Below are positions 38,414 through 45,670 of a DNA stretch of 64,000 bases, in pieces. Within the stretch, counting starts at the first letter, position 1. Every line of letters starts with the position of its first letter. The stretch comes from Gemmatimonadaceae bacterium (GTDB lineage Bacteria > Gemmatimonadota > Gemmatimonadetes > Gemmatimonadales > Gemmatimonadaceae): the NCBI GenBank assembly GCA_019186945.1, contig JABAQJ010000003.1, forward strand, positions 40,531 to 104,530. Direction: 5' to 3'. The position numbers and the translations under genes are program-made. The notes under the pieces are model-generated. The model saw only the letters and a program-made list of their open reading frames with translations, did not search any database and was not told the DNA's origin.

Positions 38414-38496
38414 GGGGACGCTCCTGAGGGTTGCCACCGCCACGAGGAGGTGGACCGAACAATTGCCGAAGCAACGTTAGCCGAAGAAGCCCCGAA

Positions 38497-39345
38497 GTGC
38501 AAGCATCCTGTAACTGGACTCCGCCGACAGGCGTTCTAGGCCGGCTCTGCGATAGCGCTCGCAAGCGCGCCCGGAGACTCGACCTTGCGGGTCTCGCTGA
38601 CGCTACCCGCCAAATGGGGTCAGACTCGAATTGGGCCCGCCAAATGGGGTCAGACCCCAATTGGTTCGCTCGCGCTCTTCGTTCAGAACCGGTCGCGATC
38701 ATAGCCGAACTCAAACGCCGGTCGCCGTCGAAGGGCGTTCTGAATGATGCCATGCCGACCGCCGATCGAGTGCGCGCATACGAGGAGGGTGGCGCCGCGG
38801 CGCTCTCGATTCTGACGGAGCCGGAGGAGTTCGGGGGCTCGATTGCAGACGTACGAACGGCATCGTGCGCGAGCGTACTCCCGATTCTGAAGAAGGATTT
38901 TCACGTCGAGCCGGTGCAGGTGCAGGAGGCGATGGCCGTAGGGTCATCGGCTCTGCTACTGATTGCACGCGCACTCGGGCCGATCGGACTGCGCAGGATG
39001 CTTGGTGCTGTTCGCGATGTGGGAATCGGAGCGCTCGTGGAAGTGCGAAGCGAGGCGGAGTTGACTTGGGCGCTCGACTGCGAAGCCAACGTGATCGGTG
39101 TAAACTGCCGAGACTTGGAGACGCTCGCACTCGACCGCGAGGTCCACGAGCGGCTTCTGCCATTGGTACCGGCGGGATGTATCGCTGTGGCGGAGAGCGG
39201 TGTCCGTACGCGTCAGGACGTGGAGCGTCTGGCCAGCCTTGGGGCGGATGCCGTACTGGTCGGATCGGTCCTCTCGCTCTCTATACGGGCGTCGGACGCC
39301 GTTGCTGCACTGACCGGAGTCCCCAGGATCGGTCGTGCGACCTGA
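38497..39345 (+). CDS. trpC: Indole-3-glycerol phosphate synthase with in-frame repeat
   Basis: Forms indole-glycerol phosphate from CdRP. The barrel is intact: IIAELKRRSPSKG (phosphate/catalytic Lys), ALSILTEPEEFGGS, PILKKDFHVEP, VEVRSEAELTWAL, GVNCRDLETL and AESGVRTRQDV. The N-terminal helix segment (GVLGRLCDSARKRARRLDL) is separated from the barrel by a duplicated ten-residue unit, ARQMGSDSNW and ARQMGSDPNW, encoded by the tandem repeat at 38606-38664, instead of the usual conserved linker. The start is uncertain: GTG at 38497 after AGAAG gives 282 residues, ATG at 38431 gives 304. It overlaps trpF by 11 nt. Confidence 0.92.
   Translation: MQASCNWTPPTGVLGRLCDSARKRARRLDLAGLADATRQMGSDSNWARQMGSDPNWFARALRSEPVAIIAELKRRSPSKGVLNDAMPTADRVRAYEEGGAAALSILTEPEEFGGSIADVRTASCASVLPILKKDFHVEPVQVQEAMAVGSSALLLIARALGPIGLRRMLGAVRDVGIGALVEVRSEAELTWALDCEANVIGVNCRDLETLALDREVHERLLPLVPAGCIAVAESGVRTRQDVERLASLGADAVLVGSVLSLSIRASDAVAALTGVPRIGRAT
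38606..38664 (+). repeat. 30-nt tandem repeat inside trpC with an internal palindrome
   Basis: Two copies with exact 30-nt period: 38606-38634 and 38636-38664, differing at two of 29 compared positions. The second copy contains the perfect palindrome GGGGTCAGACCCC (38616+30 onward), flanked by AAAT and AATT; the first has GGGGTCAGACTCG. The period of ten codons keeps trpC in frame. GGGGTCAGACCCC-type repeats recur between genes in many bacteria, as I recall often near IS200-like or REP-associated transposases, but none is in this window. Confidence 0.9.
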
Positions 39346-39994
39346 GATCAAGATTTGCGGGCTGACGCTTCCCGAGGACGCAGCGCTGGCTGCCGATGCG
39401 GGCGCATCTTACCTCGGCGTTGTTTTCGCAGAGAGCCGCCGCCGGGTCGACGCCGGGCGTGCCAGGCACGTGCTCGACGCGGCTACGCGGGAGAGCGTGC
39501 GCAGGGTGGGCGTGTTCGGAGAAGCGAATGCCGATGAAATCCTGCGCGCGGCGGATCGTGCTCGGCTGGATGTGTTGCAACTGCACGCGATCGCCAATGC
39601 CCCTGGTGTCGACTACTTGCGTTCCCGATTTGACGGAGCGATCTGGGGCGTCGTACGTGTTCGGGTGGAGCGGATCGTTCGATCCGAGTATTCGGCGTGG
39701 GAACATGCTGACGCGGTGCTGGTCGACGCCTACGATCCCGTCCGGCTCGGCGGCACTGGCCTGCGCTTCGACTGGGAACGAGCCGCGGATTCGCTGTCCG
39801 CGCTCCGTGACAGTCGGCCGTTGGTACTGGCTGGTGGCCTGACGGCGGGATCGGTGGCCGCGGCGATTGCCGCGCTGCACCCGGATGTGGTCGACGTAAG
39901 CTCGGGAGTGGAATCCGCACCCGGAGTGAAGGATCATGTGCGCGTAGCGGACTTTGTGCGCGCCGTTCAGGAGGCAGAGCGTGAACTGGACTGA
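39335..39994 (+). CDS. trpF: Phosphoribosylanthranilate isomerase
   Basis: Amadori isomerase preceding TrpC in the pathway. The 219-residue barrel begins [15 protein letters not shown] with the conserved active-site cysteine in KICG, then [12 protein letters not shown] (family FxxxSPR-like), [22 protein letters not shown] with catalytic-type Asp, [19 protein letters not shown] and the C-terminal [18 protein letters not shown] at 39335 overlaps trpC by 11 nt. trpB begins 14 nt before its end. Confidence 0.95.
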
Positions 39995-41174
39995 GGCAGA
40001 GTTGGATGAGCGGTTCGGACCGTTTGGCGGTCGCTATGTGCCAGAGACCCTGATCCCGGCATTGGATGCCCTGACCGTCGCGTACGCAGAGGCTGTAGCA
40101 GACGCCGCCTTTTGCGAGGAACTGGAATCACTCGCTCGCCATTACGTGGGCCGCCCGTCCGCGCTCACGTTCGCGCCGCGATTCTCCGAACGGATCGGCG
40201 CTTCGGTGTGGCTCAAACGTGAGGATTTGAATCACACCGGTGCCCACAAGATCAACAACGCTCTCGGCCAAGCACTGCTGGCCGTGCGGATGGGGAAACG
40301 GCGGATCATTGCCGAGACTGGCGCTGGGCAGCACGGTGTGGCGACCGCGACTGTCTGCGCTCGCTTCGGACTGGAGTGCGTGGTTTACATGGGCGAGGAG
40401 GATATGCGTCGCCAAGCACTCAACGTCTATCGGATGCGTTTGATGGGCGCCACCGTCGTTCCGGTCACCACGGGGACCAGGACCCTGAAGGACGCGACGA
40501 CCGAAGCGATTCGGGATTGGGTCACGAATGTCGAGGGATCGCACTACATCATCGGTTCCGTGGTCGGCCCGGCCCCATATCCTCGGATGGTGCGTGATTT
40601 TCAGAGCGTCGTGGGCGCGGAGGCGCGCGCCCAGTTGCTGGCGGCCACGAATCGGCTGCCGACGACGGTGGTGGCCTGTGTCGGCGGTGGGTCGAACGCT
40701 ATGGGGATATTCGCCGGTTTTGTTGACGATTCCGGGGTCGAACTCGTCGGAGTAGAGGCGGCTGGTGAGGGCCTCGAAACGGGCAACCATTCCGCGTCGC
40801 TTTCCATGGGAACGCCTGGAGTGTTGCACGGAGCATTGAGCTATCTCTTGCAGGACGCCAACGGACAGGTTCACCCGGCGCACTCGATTTCGGCTGGACT
40901 CGACTATCCGGGGGTGGGACCCGAGCATGCCTACCTGAAGGACATTGGCCGTGCGCGCTACGAAGCCGTTACGGATCGCGAGGCTCTGGACGGTTTCGCA
41001 CTCCTTGCCCGAATGGAGGGGATTGTGCCCGCGCTGGAAACGGCGCACGCCGTGGCGTGGATCGACCGCGAGCGTTCGCGGTGGTCTTCGCACGATCTGG
41101 TGCTGCTCTGCGTGAGCGGCCGCGGCGACAAGGATGTAGCCCAAGTGAGCGACTTGGGCGCGGTGTCGACGTAG
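39981..41174 (+). CDS. trpB: Tryptophan synthase beta chain
   Basis: Joins indole with serine using PLP. The 397-residue TrpB1-type protein has [12 protein letters not shown] at the start, the PLP lysine in [17 protein letters not shown] (about residue 85), [14 protein letters not shown], the PLP-phosphate loop [11 protein letters not shown], and [22 protein letters not shown] at 39981 is chosen for an AGGAGG placed 7 nt upstream and the family-like [12 protein letters not shown] start. Its partner trpA is 3.1 kb downstream, beyond two signalling genes, an unusual gap since trpB and trpA are usually adjacent. Confidence 0.96.
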
Positions 41175-41176
41175 GC

Positions 41177-42877
41177 ATGTTGTCCGCCCCCCCGGCGAAG
41201 GACGCCCTGGTGCGAGCGGAGCCTCCTCTCGATGCAACGCTCGTGGAGGAGATGCTTCGCCTCTTCGCTCGCGCGATGCGTGCGCGCCTGCTGTACCTGC
41301 CGAACAATCCGACGTATCTCAAGTCGATCGAGAACCTGCGCGGCGCGTTCGGCTCCATCTGGCAGCAGGTCGAGGAAGTTACGCTCGAGGTCACCGACAC
41401 ACAGTTGCGCTGGGAGGGTGTCGCAGTTGCCAGTGAGCCGGACAAGACCAGCGATGCGCTCCCTTGGGTGCTCTACAAGGACGGGATACGGGAAGTCAGT
41501 CTGCGACGCGGAGTGGAAGAGCAGGAGATCGTGACGCTCCTGCAGATCATCGCGCGCGTTCGGAAGGCATCACCCGACGAGGACGATCTGCTCACGCTGT
41601 TGTGGGAGCAGGAGTTCGCCTTCGTGAGGTACCGGTATGTGGACGTGTCCGTCGAGGCAGCCATTCCGCTGATCGCGAGTGACGAAGCTCAGAGGGATCG
41701 GCTGGTCGAGTCGCACATGGTGCACGAACCGGCGCAGGAAACGATTCTGCCGCCTGGGGTGGTGAATCTCGATGACTTCTCGGCGACGCTCTACTTTCTC
41801 GACGAGCGGGAAACGGAGTATCTGCGGGCCGAGATCGACTCCGAGTATGGTGCCGATCTGCGCACCAGTGTGGTCGCGTCGCTGCTGGATATCTACGAGG
41901 TCCAGACGGATGCGCGGATCCGTGAGGAAGTGACGCGCTTGTTGGCACTGATGCTGGTGCAGACGCTTTCCGGTGGCCACCTGACGACCGGCGCGTTCCT
42001 GCTTCGCGAGGTGAATCTGGCGGCGAGTCGCGCGCGGGAGATCACGCCGGTCCAGCGCGAGGCGCTTCTGGCGATTCCCGATCGGATGAGCGAGGCGGAG
42101 ACGCTGGCGCAGCTGCTACAGTCGCTCGACGATCGTGTCGACCTGCCGGTTCAGGCGGACCTGAACGCGCTGTTCGAGCAGCTGCGGGTCGGGGCGATGT
42201 CGACGGTGTTCTCCTGGCTCGGACGCATTCAGTCGCCGCGAGTGCGCCAGCTGCTGGAGTCGGCCGCGAGCCGATTGGCAGCCGCCAACACGGCCGAGCT
42301 GTTGCGGCTGGTGACGTCGTCGGAGCGTGCCGTCATGATGGAGGCGATCAGGCGTGCCGGCGCGATGAAGGCAAGTGCGGCGGTGCCGGCGCTGGCACGG
42401 CAGAGCGTTCATGCGGAAGCGGCTGTGCGACTGGCCGCCGTGCAGGCCCTGGCCGAAATCGGGACGCCGGGAGCGCTCCAGCATCTCGAGCGTGGGCTCG
42501 AGGATGGCGATCGCGACGTTCGGGTGGCATCGGCCCGAGCTTTCGTGACGCGCTTGCACAAGCCGGCGCTGTTGAAACTGGAAGCCGCGATCAAAGCCAA
42601 GCGGTTGCACGATGCGGACCTGACGGAGAAGATGGCGATCTTCGAGGCCTACGGCGCGATGTGCGGCGACGCCGGCGTTCCGCTGCTGGATGGATACCTG
42701 AACGATCGCGGGCTCTTCGGGCGCCGTGCCGATCCCGAGATGCGGGCATGCGCGGCCATGGCGTTAGGCAAGGTGGGCTCGCAGCAGGCGCTCGTAGCGC
42801 TCCAGAAGTCGTCGACGGACAAGGAAGTCCTCGTGAGAAACGCTGTGAACAGGATCCTGCGCGGGGGGCCCGGATGA
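41177..42877 (+). CDS. HEAT-repeat protein with N-terminal domain shared with next gene
   Basis: The 566-residue protein starts ATG 41177, two bases after trpB. Residues about 20-160 form a mixed alpha-beta domain (RLLYLPNNPTYLKSIENL, then strands and DGIREVSLRRGVEEQEIVTLL) that resembles residues 20-130 of the adjacent HD-GYP protein. The middle (about 225-400) is helical. The C-terminal part (about 400-560) carries HEAT-like repeats, e.g. AAVPALARQSVHAEAAVRLAAVQALAEIG and ALQHLERGLEDGDRDVRVASARAFV, typical of a protein-binding scaffold. No signal peptide or membrane helix. It overlaps the HD-GYP gene by four bases, suggesting a shared role. Confidence 0.8.
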   Translation: MLSAPPAKDALVRAEPPLDATLVEEMLRLFARAMRARLLYLPNNPTYLKSIENLRGAFGSIWQQVEEVTLEVTDTQLRWEGVAVASEPDKTSDALPWVLYKDGIREVSLRRGVEEQEIVTLLQIIARVRKASPDEDDLLTLLWEQEFAFVRYRYVDVSVEAAIPLIASDEAQRDRLVESHMVHEPAQETILPPGVVNLDDFSATLYFLDERETEYLRAEIDSEYGADLRTSVVASLLDIYEVQTDARIREEVTRLLALMLVQTLSGGHLTTGAFLLREVNLAASRAREITPVQREALLAIPDRMSEAETLAQLLQSLDDRVDLPVQADLNALFEQLRVGAMSTVFSWLGRIQSPRVRQLLESAASRLAAANTAELLRLVTSSERAVMMEAIRRAGAMKASAAVPALARQSVHAEAAVRLAAVQALAEIGTPGALQHLERGLEDGDRDVRVASARAFVTRLHKPALLKLEAAIKAKRLHDADLTEKMAIFEAYGAMCGDAGVPLLDGYLNDRGLFGRRADPEMRACAAMALGKVGSQQALVALQKSSTDKEVLVRNAVNRILRGGPG

Positions 42878-44322
42878 CCGCGCTGGCCCCGCTCCAGGAC
42901 GTCTCCAGTGACTCGTATGTCCGCAAGGCCGGCCGACAGTTGATCGTCACGATCTATGGCGCGATCCGGGTGATCCGGCTCTATCCGCCGGAGAATGACG
43001 CGGTCCGCAATGCCCTGGAGGAGCTGGCGTCCGCGTCTCGTGCGATTCTCGAGCGTGAGCACGAACTCGAGCTCCGTGCGTCGAACGAGTTCATCTTCGT
43101 TAACGCTACCCGACTGCGGCTCGATCTGGACAATTTCGCCGCTTTCAGTCAGTTCCTGTCACTGCTTCGTGCCTGCGGCATCGGCACGGTCACCGTGCTC
43201 GCCGGCACCGAACCGCGCGATTGGCTGGTCTTTCTCTCGCTTCTCCTCTCGACCAGCCGGGAAGCGGACGTCACGCACTTCGACATGCGCGAGAAGCTGT
43301 CGGCTGCCAGCGTCTCGTCGATAGATCTCGGTCCGCCGAGCGTAATCGAGGACGACGCAGGTTTCATGGAGCGGGCGCGAGAGGCCGCCAAGCGAACCTA
43401 CTCCCAGTCCGTGGCGGTCACGAAGGACGTCATTCAGTCGATCCGCCTCGGTCAGGCGCCGAACATCAAGAAGATCAAACGCGTCGTGCAGACGATCGTC
43501 GACCAGATCCTGAACGAGGAAACGTCGCTGCTTGGCCTGACGACGATTCGCGATTACGACGAATACACGTTCACGCACAGCGTCAACGTGTGCATCTTCT
43601 CGGTCGCGCTCGGACGCCGGCTTGGCCTGAGCAAGATGCAGCTGTACGACCTGGGGATGTGCGCGCTTTTCCATGACATCGGGAAGTCGCGCGTTCCGCT
43701 GTCCGTTCTGAACAAGAGCGGTCGCCTTACGGACGACGATTGGCGGTGGCTGGCCGCGCATCCGTGGTTAGGCGTGCTCGCGCTGTTTCAGATGCGCGGA
43801 CAGCAGGAACTGCCGTATCGGGCGATGGTCGTGGCGTACGAGCACCACATGAAGACAGACCTCTCCGGGTATCCCAAGGCGATCCGGGATCGGCAACAGA
43901 GCATTTTCTCCAAGATCGTAGCCGTTGCTGACGGATTCGATGCCGCGACTTCCCGGCGTCATTACCAGACCAATCCGCTTTCCCCGGCTGCGGTCCTCGC
44001 GGGCATGCGGGACAACGCACGCCGTGGCTTCGACCCCGTGGTCGTGAAAGGCTTCATCACCCTGCTGGGAATCTTCCCTGTTGGAACGCTGGTGGTTCTC
44101 GATACCTTTGAACTCGCACTCGTACACGCCGCCAACCCGAAGCCGGATGCGATCTCGCGTCCGGTAGTCCGAATCGTCTCCGACGATCGCGGAAACGTGC
44201 TGTATCCCGGGCATCTCGTCGATTTGACGGAGCAGGGAGAGGATGGCGTCTACAAGCGAACGATCATCAAGACCGAGAACCCCGATCGCTATGCAATCAA
44301 CGTCGGCGACTACTTCGTCTGA
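42874..44322 (+). CDS. HD-GYP domain phosphodiesterase-like protein
   Basis: The 482-residue cytoplasmic protein has an N-terminal domain (about 15-140; IRLYPPENDAVRNALEEL, then GIGTVTVLAGTEPRDWLVFL) similar in layout to the HEAT protein, a helical linker, and an HD-GYP domain (about 225-410). Key residues are visible: His235 (FTHSVNVC), His267-Asp268 (FHDIGKSRVP), His324-His325 (EHHMKTDLSGYP) with Gly-Tyr-Pro at 332-334, and Asp353 (AVADGFDA). This supports cyclic-di-GMP hydrolysis. The C-terminal 80 residues add a small beta domain. trpA starts 32 nt before its end. Confidence 0.9.
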   Translation: MTALAPLQDVSSDSYVRKAGRQLIVTIYGAIRVIRLYPPENDAVRNALEELASASRAILEREHELELRASNEFIFVNATRLRLDLDNFAAFSQFLSLLRACGIGTVTVLAGTEPRDWLVFLSLLLSTSREADVTHFDMREKLSAASVSSIDLGPPSVIEDDAGFMERAREAAKRTYSQSVAVTKDVIQSIRLGQAPNIKKIKRVVQTIVDQILNEETSLLGLTTIRDYDEYTFTHSVNVCIFSVALGRRLGLSKMQLYDLGMCALFHDIGKSRVPLSVLNKSGRLTDDDWRWLAAHPWLGVLALFQMRGQQELPYRAMVVAYEHHMKTDLSGYPKAIRDRQQSIFSKIVAVADGFDAATSRRHYQTNPLSPAAVLAGMRDNARRGFDPVVVKGFITLLGIFPVGTLVVLDTFELALVHAANPKPDAISRPVVRIVSDDRGNVLYPGHLVDLTEQGEDGVYKRTIIKTENPDRYAINVGDYFV

Positions 44323-45091
44323 CGCCCTCAGCAGGCACCTGGAAGCCCTGGGCGCTCGTCGTCGACGGGCGCTCGTCGTGTACATCACGGCGGGTCATCC
44401 GTCCCCGGATGCAACCATCGCCCTGATGCGCGCCCTCGAGCAAGCGGGTGCCGACGTCATCGAAGTCGGGGTGCCGTTTTCCGACCCCATGGCAGATGGA
44501 CCGGTCATTCAGGCGAGTTCGCAGCGAGGGCTCGATCATGGCGTGAGTTTCGACCGCGCGCTGGATTTGATCGCGACGGCCGCGGTTTCGGTGCCGATCG
44601 TTCTGTTCAGCTACCTGAATCCTGTGCTGGCCGCGGGGGAGGACGCGCTTCGGCGAGCGGCTGCCGCAGGTGTCCATGGCATCCTCATCACGGATCTGCC
44701 TGTGGGCTCGGATAGGGTGCGTGAGCGCTGGTTGGGCACTGGACCGCTCGCTTTCGTTCGGCTCGTTGCACCCACGACGCCGACTGAGCGGATGCGAGAG
44801 ATCGCCGCACATGGAAGTGGTTTCGTCTATCTCATTTCACGGCTCGGCGTGACCGGCGCGCGCGAGGACGTCGCGAGCGAGTTGCCCGACGTGATCGCTC
44901 GCCTTCGTACTGCCACGGCGCTGCCCGTCTGCGTGGGTTTCGGTATTTCGACGCCGGAGCAGGCGCAGATCGTGGGGCGCATGGCCGACGGCATCGTCGT
45001 GGGAAGTGCGATCGTTCGGGCTGCTGGCACCAGCATCGACGCGGCCGCCGAGTTGACCCGGACCTTGCGAGATGCCTTGGACAGCGCCTGA
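44291..45091 (+). CDS. trpA: Tryptophan synthase alpha chain
   Basis: Cleaves indole-glycerol phosphate to indole for TrpB. The 266-residue barrel carries the signature VVYITAGHPSPDATI, the catalytic Glu in VIEVGVPFSDPMADGPVIQ (about residue 49), catalytic Asp in LITDLPVGSDR, YLISRLGVTGAR and VCVGFGISTPEQ with GIVVGSAIV. ATG at 44291 gives a 32-nt overlap with the HD-GYP gene, a long overlap that indicates tight transcriptional linkage. The first 15 residues are polar and not conserved. Confidence 0.95.
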   Translation: MQSTSATTSSDALSRHLEALGARRRRALVVYITAGHPSPDATIALMRALEQAGADVIEVGVPFSDPMADGPVIQASSQRGLDHGVSFDRALDLIATAAVSVPIVLFSYLNPVLAAGEDALRRAAAAGVHGILITDLPVGSDRVRERWLGTGPLAFVRLVAPTTPTERMREIAAHGSGFVYLISRLGVTGAREDVASELPDVIARLRTATALPVCVGFGISTPEQAQIVGRMADGIVVGSAIVRAAGTSIDAAAELTRTLRDALDSA

Positions 45092-45115: not shown

Positions 45116-45670
45116 GTGACCGAAAAGACCGTCACACTTCCAAAATGGGCCATCGTCTCCGAAAAGCGGCTAGCGCACATCGAACGCGTCACGTCGCTCC
45201 TTGACCGCTGGAGCAACGAGCTCGGCCTGCCGAGGAGCGACCGACAGGCATGGCACGACGCGGGCGCCTGGCACGACGTCTACCGCGATGCTTCGGACGA
45301 TGTCCTTCGCGCCGAACTTGGCGCGGATCCCAGGCCCGTGAGCATTCTGCACGGCCCAGCCGCTGCCCACCGTTTAGAACGGGAGGGAGAGACGCGCAGA
45401 GACGTCCTGGACGCAATCCGGTGGCATACATTGGGAAACCCCGACTGGGGTCGAACCGGACGCGCTCTCTTCATGGCTGATTTCCTCGAGCCGGGCCGAC
45501 AGTTCATGATGGAGGAACGCGCCCGCCTTGCAGAGCGCGTTCCGCGCGACTTCGATCGCGTTTTTCAGCAGGTGGTTCGCGCGCGCCTGGAGTGGACGCT
45601 TCGCGAGGGGAAGCCCATCTTTCCAGAAACGGTGGCGTTATGGAATCACCTACGGCGAAGCGACGCTTAG
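45116..45670 (+). CDS. YqeK-like HD-domain hydrolase
   Basis: The 184-residue protein resembles the YqeK family, symmetric dinucleoside tetraphosphatases: a His in RLAHIERVTSLLDRW, the HD pair in AGAWHDVYRD, HGPAAAHRL, AIRWHTLGNPDWG and MADFLEPGR align with the family's ordered motifs. In YqeK the HD motif is usually LHD; here it is WHD. GTG at 45116 follows trpA by 24 nt. The end overlaps the next gene by 31 nt. Substrate remains an inference. Confidence 0.75.
   Translation: MTEKTVTLPKWAIVSEKRLAHIERVTSLLDRWSNELGLPRSDRQAWHDAGAWHDVYRDASDDVLRAELGADPRPVSILHGPAAAHRLEREGETRRDVLDAIRWHTLGNPDWGRTGRALFMADFLEPGRQFMMEERARLAERVPRDFDRVFQQVVRARLEWTLREGKPIFPETVALWNHLRRSDA

Follow-up and report, generated by a model that had tools for sequence, protein, structure and literature searches.

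The locus raises the question of why two large genes of signalling type should stand between trpB and trpA, and whether they take any part in the synthesis of tryptophan. In the window (the whole stretch of DNA analysed, 64,000 nucleotides), the two open reading frames reported between the trp genes by the first-pass annotation were located as given in Table 1, the first encoding a HEAT-repeat protein and the second an HD-GYP protein. The HEAT protein combined a Pfam HEAT repeat match with a helical solenoid fold in its predicted structure (pLDDT 88.1 overall), and the best Foldseek matches of the solenoid were alphaRep and HEAT/PP2A-A type proteins. The genes are closely packed: the HEAT stop and the HD-GYP start overlap by ATGA, the median gap between trpB and the HEAT gene was 2 nt (71 loci), and for the estimated overlap between the HD-GYP gene and trpA the median and both quartiles were 32 nt (70 loci). 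By way of such overlapping ORFs, the two genes would be translated from a trpC-F-B-...-A transcript.

Table 1. Features between trpB and trpA and the two flanking genes, in positions of the window
Feature	Position	Strand	Basis
trpB	39954..41174	+	stop at 41174, 2 nt before the HEAT start codon
HEAT-repeat protein, first gene of the pair	41177..42877	+	566 aa ORF; Pfam HEAT_2 (PF13646) E 2.4e-15
Shared N-terminal domain of the HEAT protein	41234..41638	+	about residues 20-154; hhalign matches; AlphaFold pLDDT about 91-96 to residue 150
Alpha-solenoid of HEAT repeats	41804..42859	+	about residues 210-561; Pfam HEAT_2/HEAT_PBS/HEAT; Foldseek
HD-GYP protein, second gene of the pair	42874..44322	+	482 aa ORF; Pfam HD_5 (PF13487) E 9e-17
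Shared N-terminal domain of the HD-GYP protein	42913..43332	+	about residues 14-153; hhalign; helix/strand order as in the HEAT N-domain
HD-GYP catalytic domain	43456..44079	+	about residues 195-402; invariant residues; structure alignment
Overlap of HD-GYP 3' end and trpA start, 32 nt	44291..44322	+	sequence
trpA	44291..45091	+	ATG at 44291; PF00290 match at G000:C8:84878-85585

Several further features were seen in the flanks. A small HD-domain protein resembling YqeK is encoded 3' of trpA (window 45116-45670), and its gene is found close to the pair in most loci, also in several from which trp has been lost. The trpC start region (window 38610-38670) carries two tandem 30-nt copies of AATGGGGTCAGACYCSAATTGG, an in-frame insertion encoding RQMGSDxNW twice, where the number expected by chance in the window is 0. 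In the lexA upstream region TTCGG-N6-TTCGG occurs twice at a distance of 26 nt (window 38455-38496, minus strand), with the likely -10 element of the gene between the copies; at least one exact copy was present in all 81 lexA upstream regions and two, with one mismatch allowed, in 79 of the 81, and no copies occurred in shuffled lexA upstream regions. The motif is a candidate LexA operator of Gemmatimonadetes, on which a literature search found nothing.

The arrangement extends far beyond the present strain. Among 298 genomes of the phylum, most of the genomes compared being MAGs, the HEAT profile gave strong matches in 202 (85 of the 103 genomes of the family, 66 of the 69 other genomes of the order and 51 further ones of the class) and none outside the class Gemmatimonadetes. 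Gene order was read from the 80 GTDB loci listed, the best 80 of 233 matches in a scan of genome contigs: wherever there was enough flank, trpB was directly upstream of the HEAT gene in 66 of 71 loci, the HD-GYP gene followed in 67 of 67 and trpA came after it in 64 of 67. Genomes G094 and G194 are examples of the same layout in other orders of the class. The trpB-HEAT-HDGYP-trpA order is kept class-wide, so that a strain-specific insertion was rejected; the cassette has stood at this place from an early stage of the class onwards.

The first-pass annotation had proposed that the two proteins share an N-terminal domain with a parallel order of elements, and on both points it was borne out by profile-profile comparison. 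With 30 orthologues on each side, the N-terminal regions aligned in hhalign with a probability of 95.8 and an E-value of 6.5e-9 over 124 collinear columns, and with E 2e-6 in a deeper sequence set, against a probability of 0.1-0.2 for controls of the N-domain with C-terminal regions; none of 40 column-shuffled controls for this match was better than E 0.02, and none of the shuffled controls for this match and that of a second pair (below) was better than E 0.0038. In the alignment YLPNNP was paired with LYPPEN, ENL with EEL and DGIREVSLRRGVEEQE with CGIGTVTVLAGTEPRD, and the predicted structures of both N-domains run helix-helix-strand-strand(-strand)-helix-strand-helix-helix-strand with matching spacing, the confidence of the HD-GYP model being only moderate (pLDDT 78.7, pTM 0.62). 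On the grounds of profiles and models, the two N-domains are homologous, about 130 residues long and without a Pfam family: no Pfam-A family fell on the domain in the 30 HEAT and 30 HD-GYP orthologues, and in a set of 20 members most had no match and the scattered single-member matches agreed on no family. PDB sequence searches gave nothing convincing for it, and a known N-terminal domain was rejected on these Pfam and PDB results. The N-domain was given no fold, since the whole-model Foldseek and VIA lists were dominated by the HD-GYP and HEAT parts. The N-terminus of another HEAT paralogue in this genome (L224) shows a superficial likeness, but the profile match was weak (E 0.005) and the protein is not claimed as a member.

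The two genes behave as a unit. Of 59 relatives, 54 have both members of the pair (pair 1) and the other five have neither. A second pair is located outside trp in the same genome, G000 (about C1:184.8-188.0 kb, 184779-188039, L232), where a gene for a 685-aa HEAT-type protein, with no Pfam match in this genome and HEAT_2 in an orthologue, is directly followed by an HD-GYP gene. The N-domains of the second pair match each other (E 1.8e-12) as well as their counterparts in pair 1 (E 6e-6 for HEAT and 2.5e-5 for HD-GYP); a relative of this pair was found in 40 of the 59 relatives, and its genes were neighbours on the same strand in 29 of 30 loci examined. A more divergent pair in G005 (L230) is probably a third paralogous one with the N-domain in both members. 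In the HD-GYP domain tree pairs 1-3 formed one group, with three other HD-GYP proteins of G000 outside it (support 100/99), although long branches leave the placement of pair 3 unsure. A merged N-domain profile applied to 15 genomes produced 22 clear matches in seven of them, all in 11 adjacent HEAT-type/HD-GYP pairs, with exactly four in G000, which are the members of its two pairs; no N-domain match was obtained in six sister-class genomes. With all 22 clear copies in such pairs, and one of the two pairs of G000 away from trp, the pair is taken as the unit. What had been called a paired sensor/effector module is therefore paired indeed, as judged by joint presence and absence, constant adjacency and paralogous pairs, and its division into sensor and effector is what we infer. 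Extra copies of the pair-1 type were seen outside trp in G252, which has three copies (L190, L191 and L192), one of them in trp, and in G017, which has two (L186 and L198).

The HD-GYP protein is predicted to be an active enzyme. Its HD_5 match scored 61.8 bits against a cut-off of 27.2, and all 30 orthologues matched this family. In 71 orthologues D229, H235, H267-D268, K271, H296, H324-H325, GYP 332-334, D353 and D356 were invariant. With the roles of metal ligands and catalytic residues taken from PmGH (PMC4159591), the equivalents of its ligands H189, H221, D222, H250, H276, H277 and D305 are all among the invariant residues, together with those of D183, K225, D308 and GYP. Seven of the eight PmGH metal ligands are conserved; the acidic ligand at E185, typical of the trinuclear PmGH-type subgroup, is absent and replaced by Tyr231 throughout the 71 orthologues, and this replacement suggests a binuclear-type metal site. 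An inactive HD-GYP domain was not supported, since the ligands are conserved. In VIA alignments the domain was closest to Bd1817 (Z 22.8, against 15.4 to PmGH), and the best PDB sequence match of the protein was the 3'3'-cGAMP phosphodiesterase V-cGAP3 (E 1.4e-27), for which reason the assignment to c-di-GMP stays tentative. GGDEF proteins were present in 30 of 30 genomes checked, with 14 in G000 and a single one in G069, a small genome that kept the pair and has no trpA match. Given the invariant catalytic residues and the GGDEF enzymes throughout, a c-di-GMP output of the predicted phosphodiesterase is plausible; 3'3'-cGAMP is a possible alternative substrate. A defence system was also considered and dropped, as there were only weak HEAT and Cas3-HD cross-matches.

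Taken together, we consider it probable that the pair is a self-contained two-gene signalling cassette, made of an HD-GYP cyclic-dinucleotide phosphodiesterase and a dedicated HEAT partner joined through their N-domains, which does not serve tryptophan synthesis. The HD-GYP protein would be metal-dependent and most likely act on c-di-GMP, the HEAT-repeat protein would be dedicated to it, probably controlling or localising the enzyme as a scaffold or adaptor, and the two N-domains would pair with each other and relay to the enzyme whatever signal the HEAT protein takes in.

The position of the genes could be read in the opposite sense, namely that the pair regulates or senses tryptophan synthesis, either through TrpA-TrpB assembly or by coupling tryptophan supply to c-di-GMP. 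The first-pass annotation had offered a tie to tryptophan supply beside simple carriage in the transcript, and the placement, which several orders of the class share and in which the 32-nt overlap with trpA is nearly constant, speaks for it; the class-wide persistence of the insertion could mean a useful co-regulation. Against such a role, the pair and the trp genes were lost independently, and on this reciprocal loss the tryptophan link was rejected. About a dozen genomes without the pair have ordinary trpB-trpA junctions, including 11 from genera that also contain pair-bearing species, where the pair was lost and trpB and trpA are adjacent in an ordinary trp operon; two further pair-less genomes (G154 and G258) have a divergent trp operon. 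Deletion relics persist in G272 (L156), with a 96-codon HD-GYP tail before trpA, and in G155 (L197), where the N-terminal half of the HEAT gene is fused to the HD-GYP tail before trpA; the tail was presumably kept because it contains the start of trpA. In the other direction, 11 genomes without a trpA match keep an intact pair (G307, G308, G017, G310, G042, G057, G069, G120, G175, G200 and G293), of which G017 is apparently the same genome as G309, and G310 has a sub-threshold trpA fragment and a 49-residue trpB relic at the pair locus; some further trpA-negative genomes, G196 and G267 among them, were left out of this count as probable contig-edge artefacts. Nine of these 11 loci read lexA-HEAT-HDGYP, and in G017 trpC stands between lexA and the pair. 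The pair was thus not lost or kept together with trpA and trpB, losses having occurred both ways, and the second pair is located outside trp, which makes a role in tryptophan synthesis very improbable. The pair is independent of tryptophan synthesis, and simple carriage in what is presumably a common trp transcript fits best. Hardly any likelihood is left for an assignment of the operon, including the pair, to the LexA/SOS response: lexA is the divergent neighbour in nearly every arrangement and still adjoins the pair after loss of the trp genes, and the shared region in front of lexA has two TTCGG-N6-TTCGG copies, but these overlap the likely lexA promoter and are explained by ordinary lexA autoregulation, and inherited gene order would by itself leave lexA next to the pair.

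With the cassette separated from tryptophan, it can still be asked whether its two products act separately, the N-domain being a common ligand-binding or homodimer domain and the adjacency a legacy of ancient duplication. N-domain homology is by itself no proof of contact, the domain is also present in single HEAT-type proteins that have no recognised HD-GYP partner close by (for example L225), and the few weaker matches of the merged profile fell on single HEAT-type proteins in G014, G015 and G021; however, every clear copy in the seven genomes belongs to an adjacent pair and gain or loss affects both genes at once, and we regard separate action as possible, though unlikely. It is also rather doubtful that the HD-GYP protein hydrolyses 3'3'-cGAMP or another dinucleotide, or serves as a receptor without turnover, instead of being a c-di-GMP phosphodiesterase: V-cGAP3 as the best sequence match, Bd1817 as the best structural match and the tyrosine in place of E185 would agree with this, while the other seven metal ligands, the D183 and K225 equivalents and GYP are invariant and GGDEF enzymes occur in every genome checked. 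The cassette of phosphodiesterase and partner remains the preferred reading. As a wider and more tentative proposal, to which we would give somewhat less than an even chance, it may represent an undescribed two-gene family of cyclic-dinucleotide control, docking via homologous domains, which duplicated in Gemmatimonadetes to give two or more types of cassette and whose oldest copy became fixed in the trp operon as a passenger early in the class.

Literature searches for HD-GYP joined with HEAT repeats and for Gemmatimonas with the trp operon returned nothing relevant, and no description of a HEAT/HD-GYP cassette was found. The pair offers a concrete point of entry to cyclic-dinucleotide signalling in a phylum that has been little studied, and its unnamed N-domain may join a phosphodiesterase to its scaffold. 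It also calls for caution in neighbourhood-based function prediction: the order of genes in a biosynthetic operon, even when conserved across a class, is no evidence of shared function, since here the association breaks independently in both directions.

Compared to known systems, the HEAT protein resembles bacterial HEAT/PBS-lyase repeat proteins in its C-terminal alpha-solenoid, which matches HEAT_2 and alphaRep/PP2A-A folds, a likeness that implies no enzyme family; in contrast to them, it bears the shared N-domain and always adjoins an HD-GYP gene in the loci tested. The HD-GYP protein has in common with PmGH (4mcw), PA4781 (4r8z), V-cGAP3 (5z7c) and Bd1817 (3tm8) the HD-GYP fold with a helical linker in front and the invariant H, HD, K, H, HH, D and GYP. 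Unlike in the known HD-GYP phosphodiesterases, its N-domain is unmatched by the GAF, PAS and DUF3391 Pfam families, the E185 of PmGH is a tyrosine and a HEAT protein is the obligate neighbour. HD-GYP proteins with DUF3391 (PF11871) show a weak similarity at the linker helix before the HD-GYP domain (E<0.01 in 12 of 30 members), but only the final part of DUF3391 is involved in this match, which takes in nothing of the shared N-domain and is below the cut-off (E 0.03 in the present protein, profile positions 102-135). Finally, trp operons with extra genes are represented by the trpCXBA operon of Streptomyces, which, as described in PMC5036795, includes the additional gene trpX/trpM; while that operon likewise has a gene added inside it, here two large signalling genes split trpB from trpA and are separable from trp.
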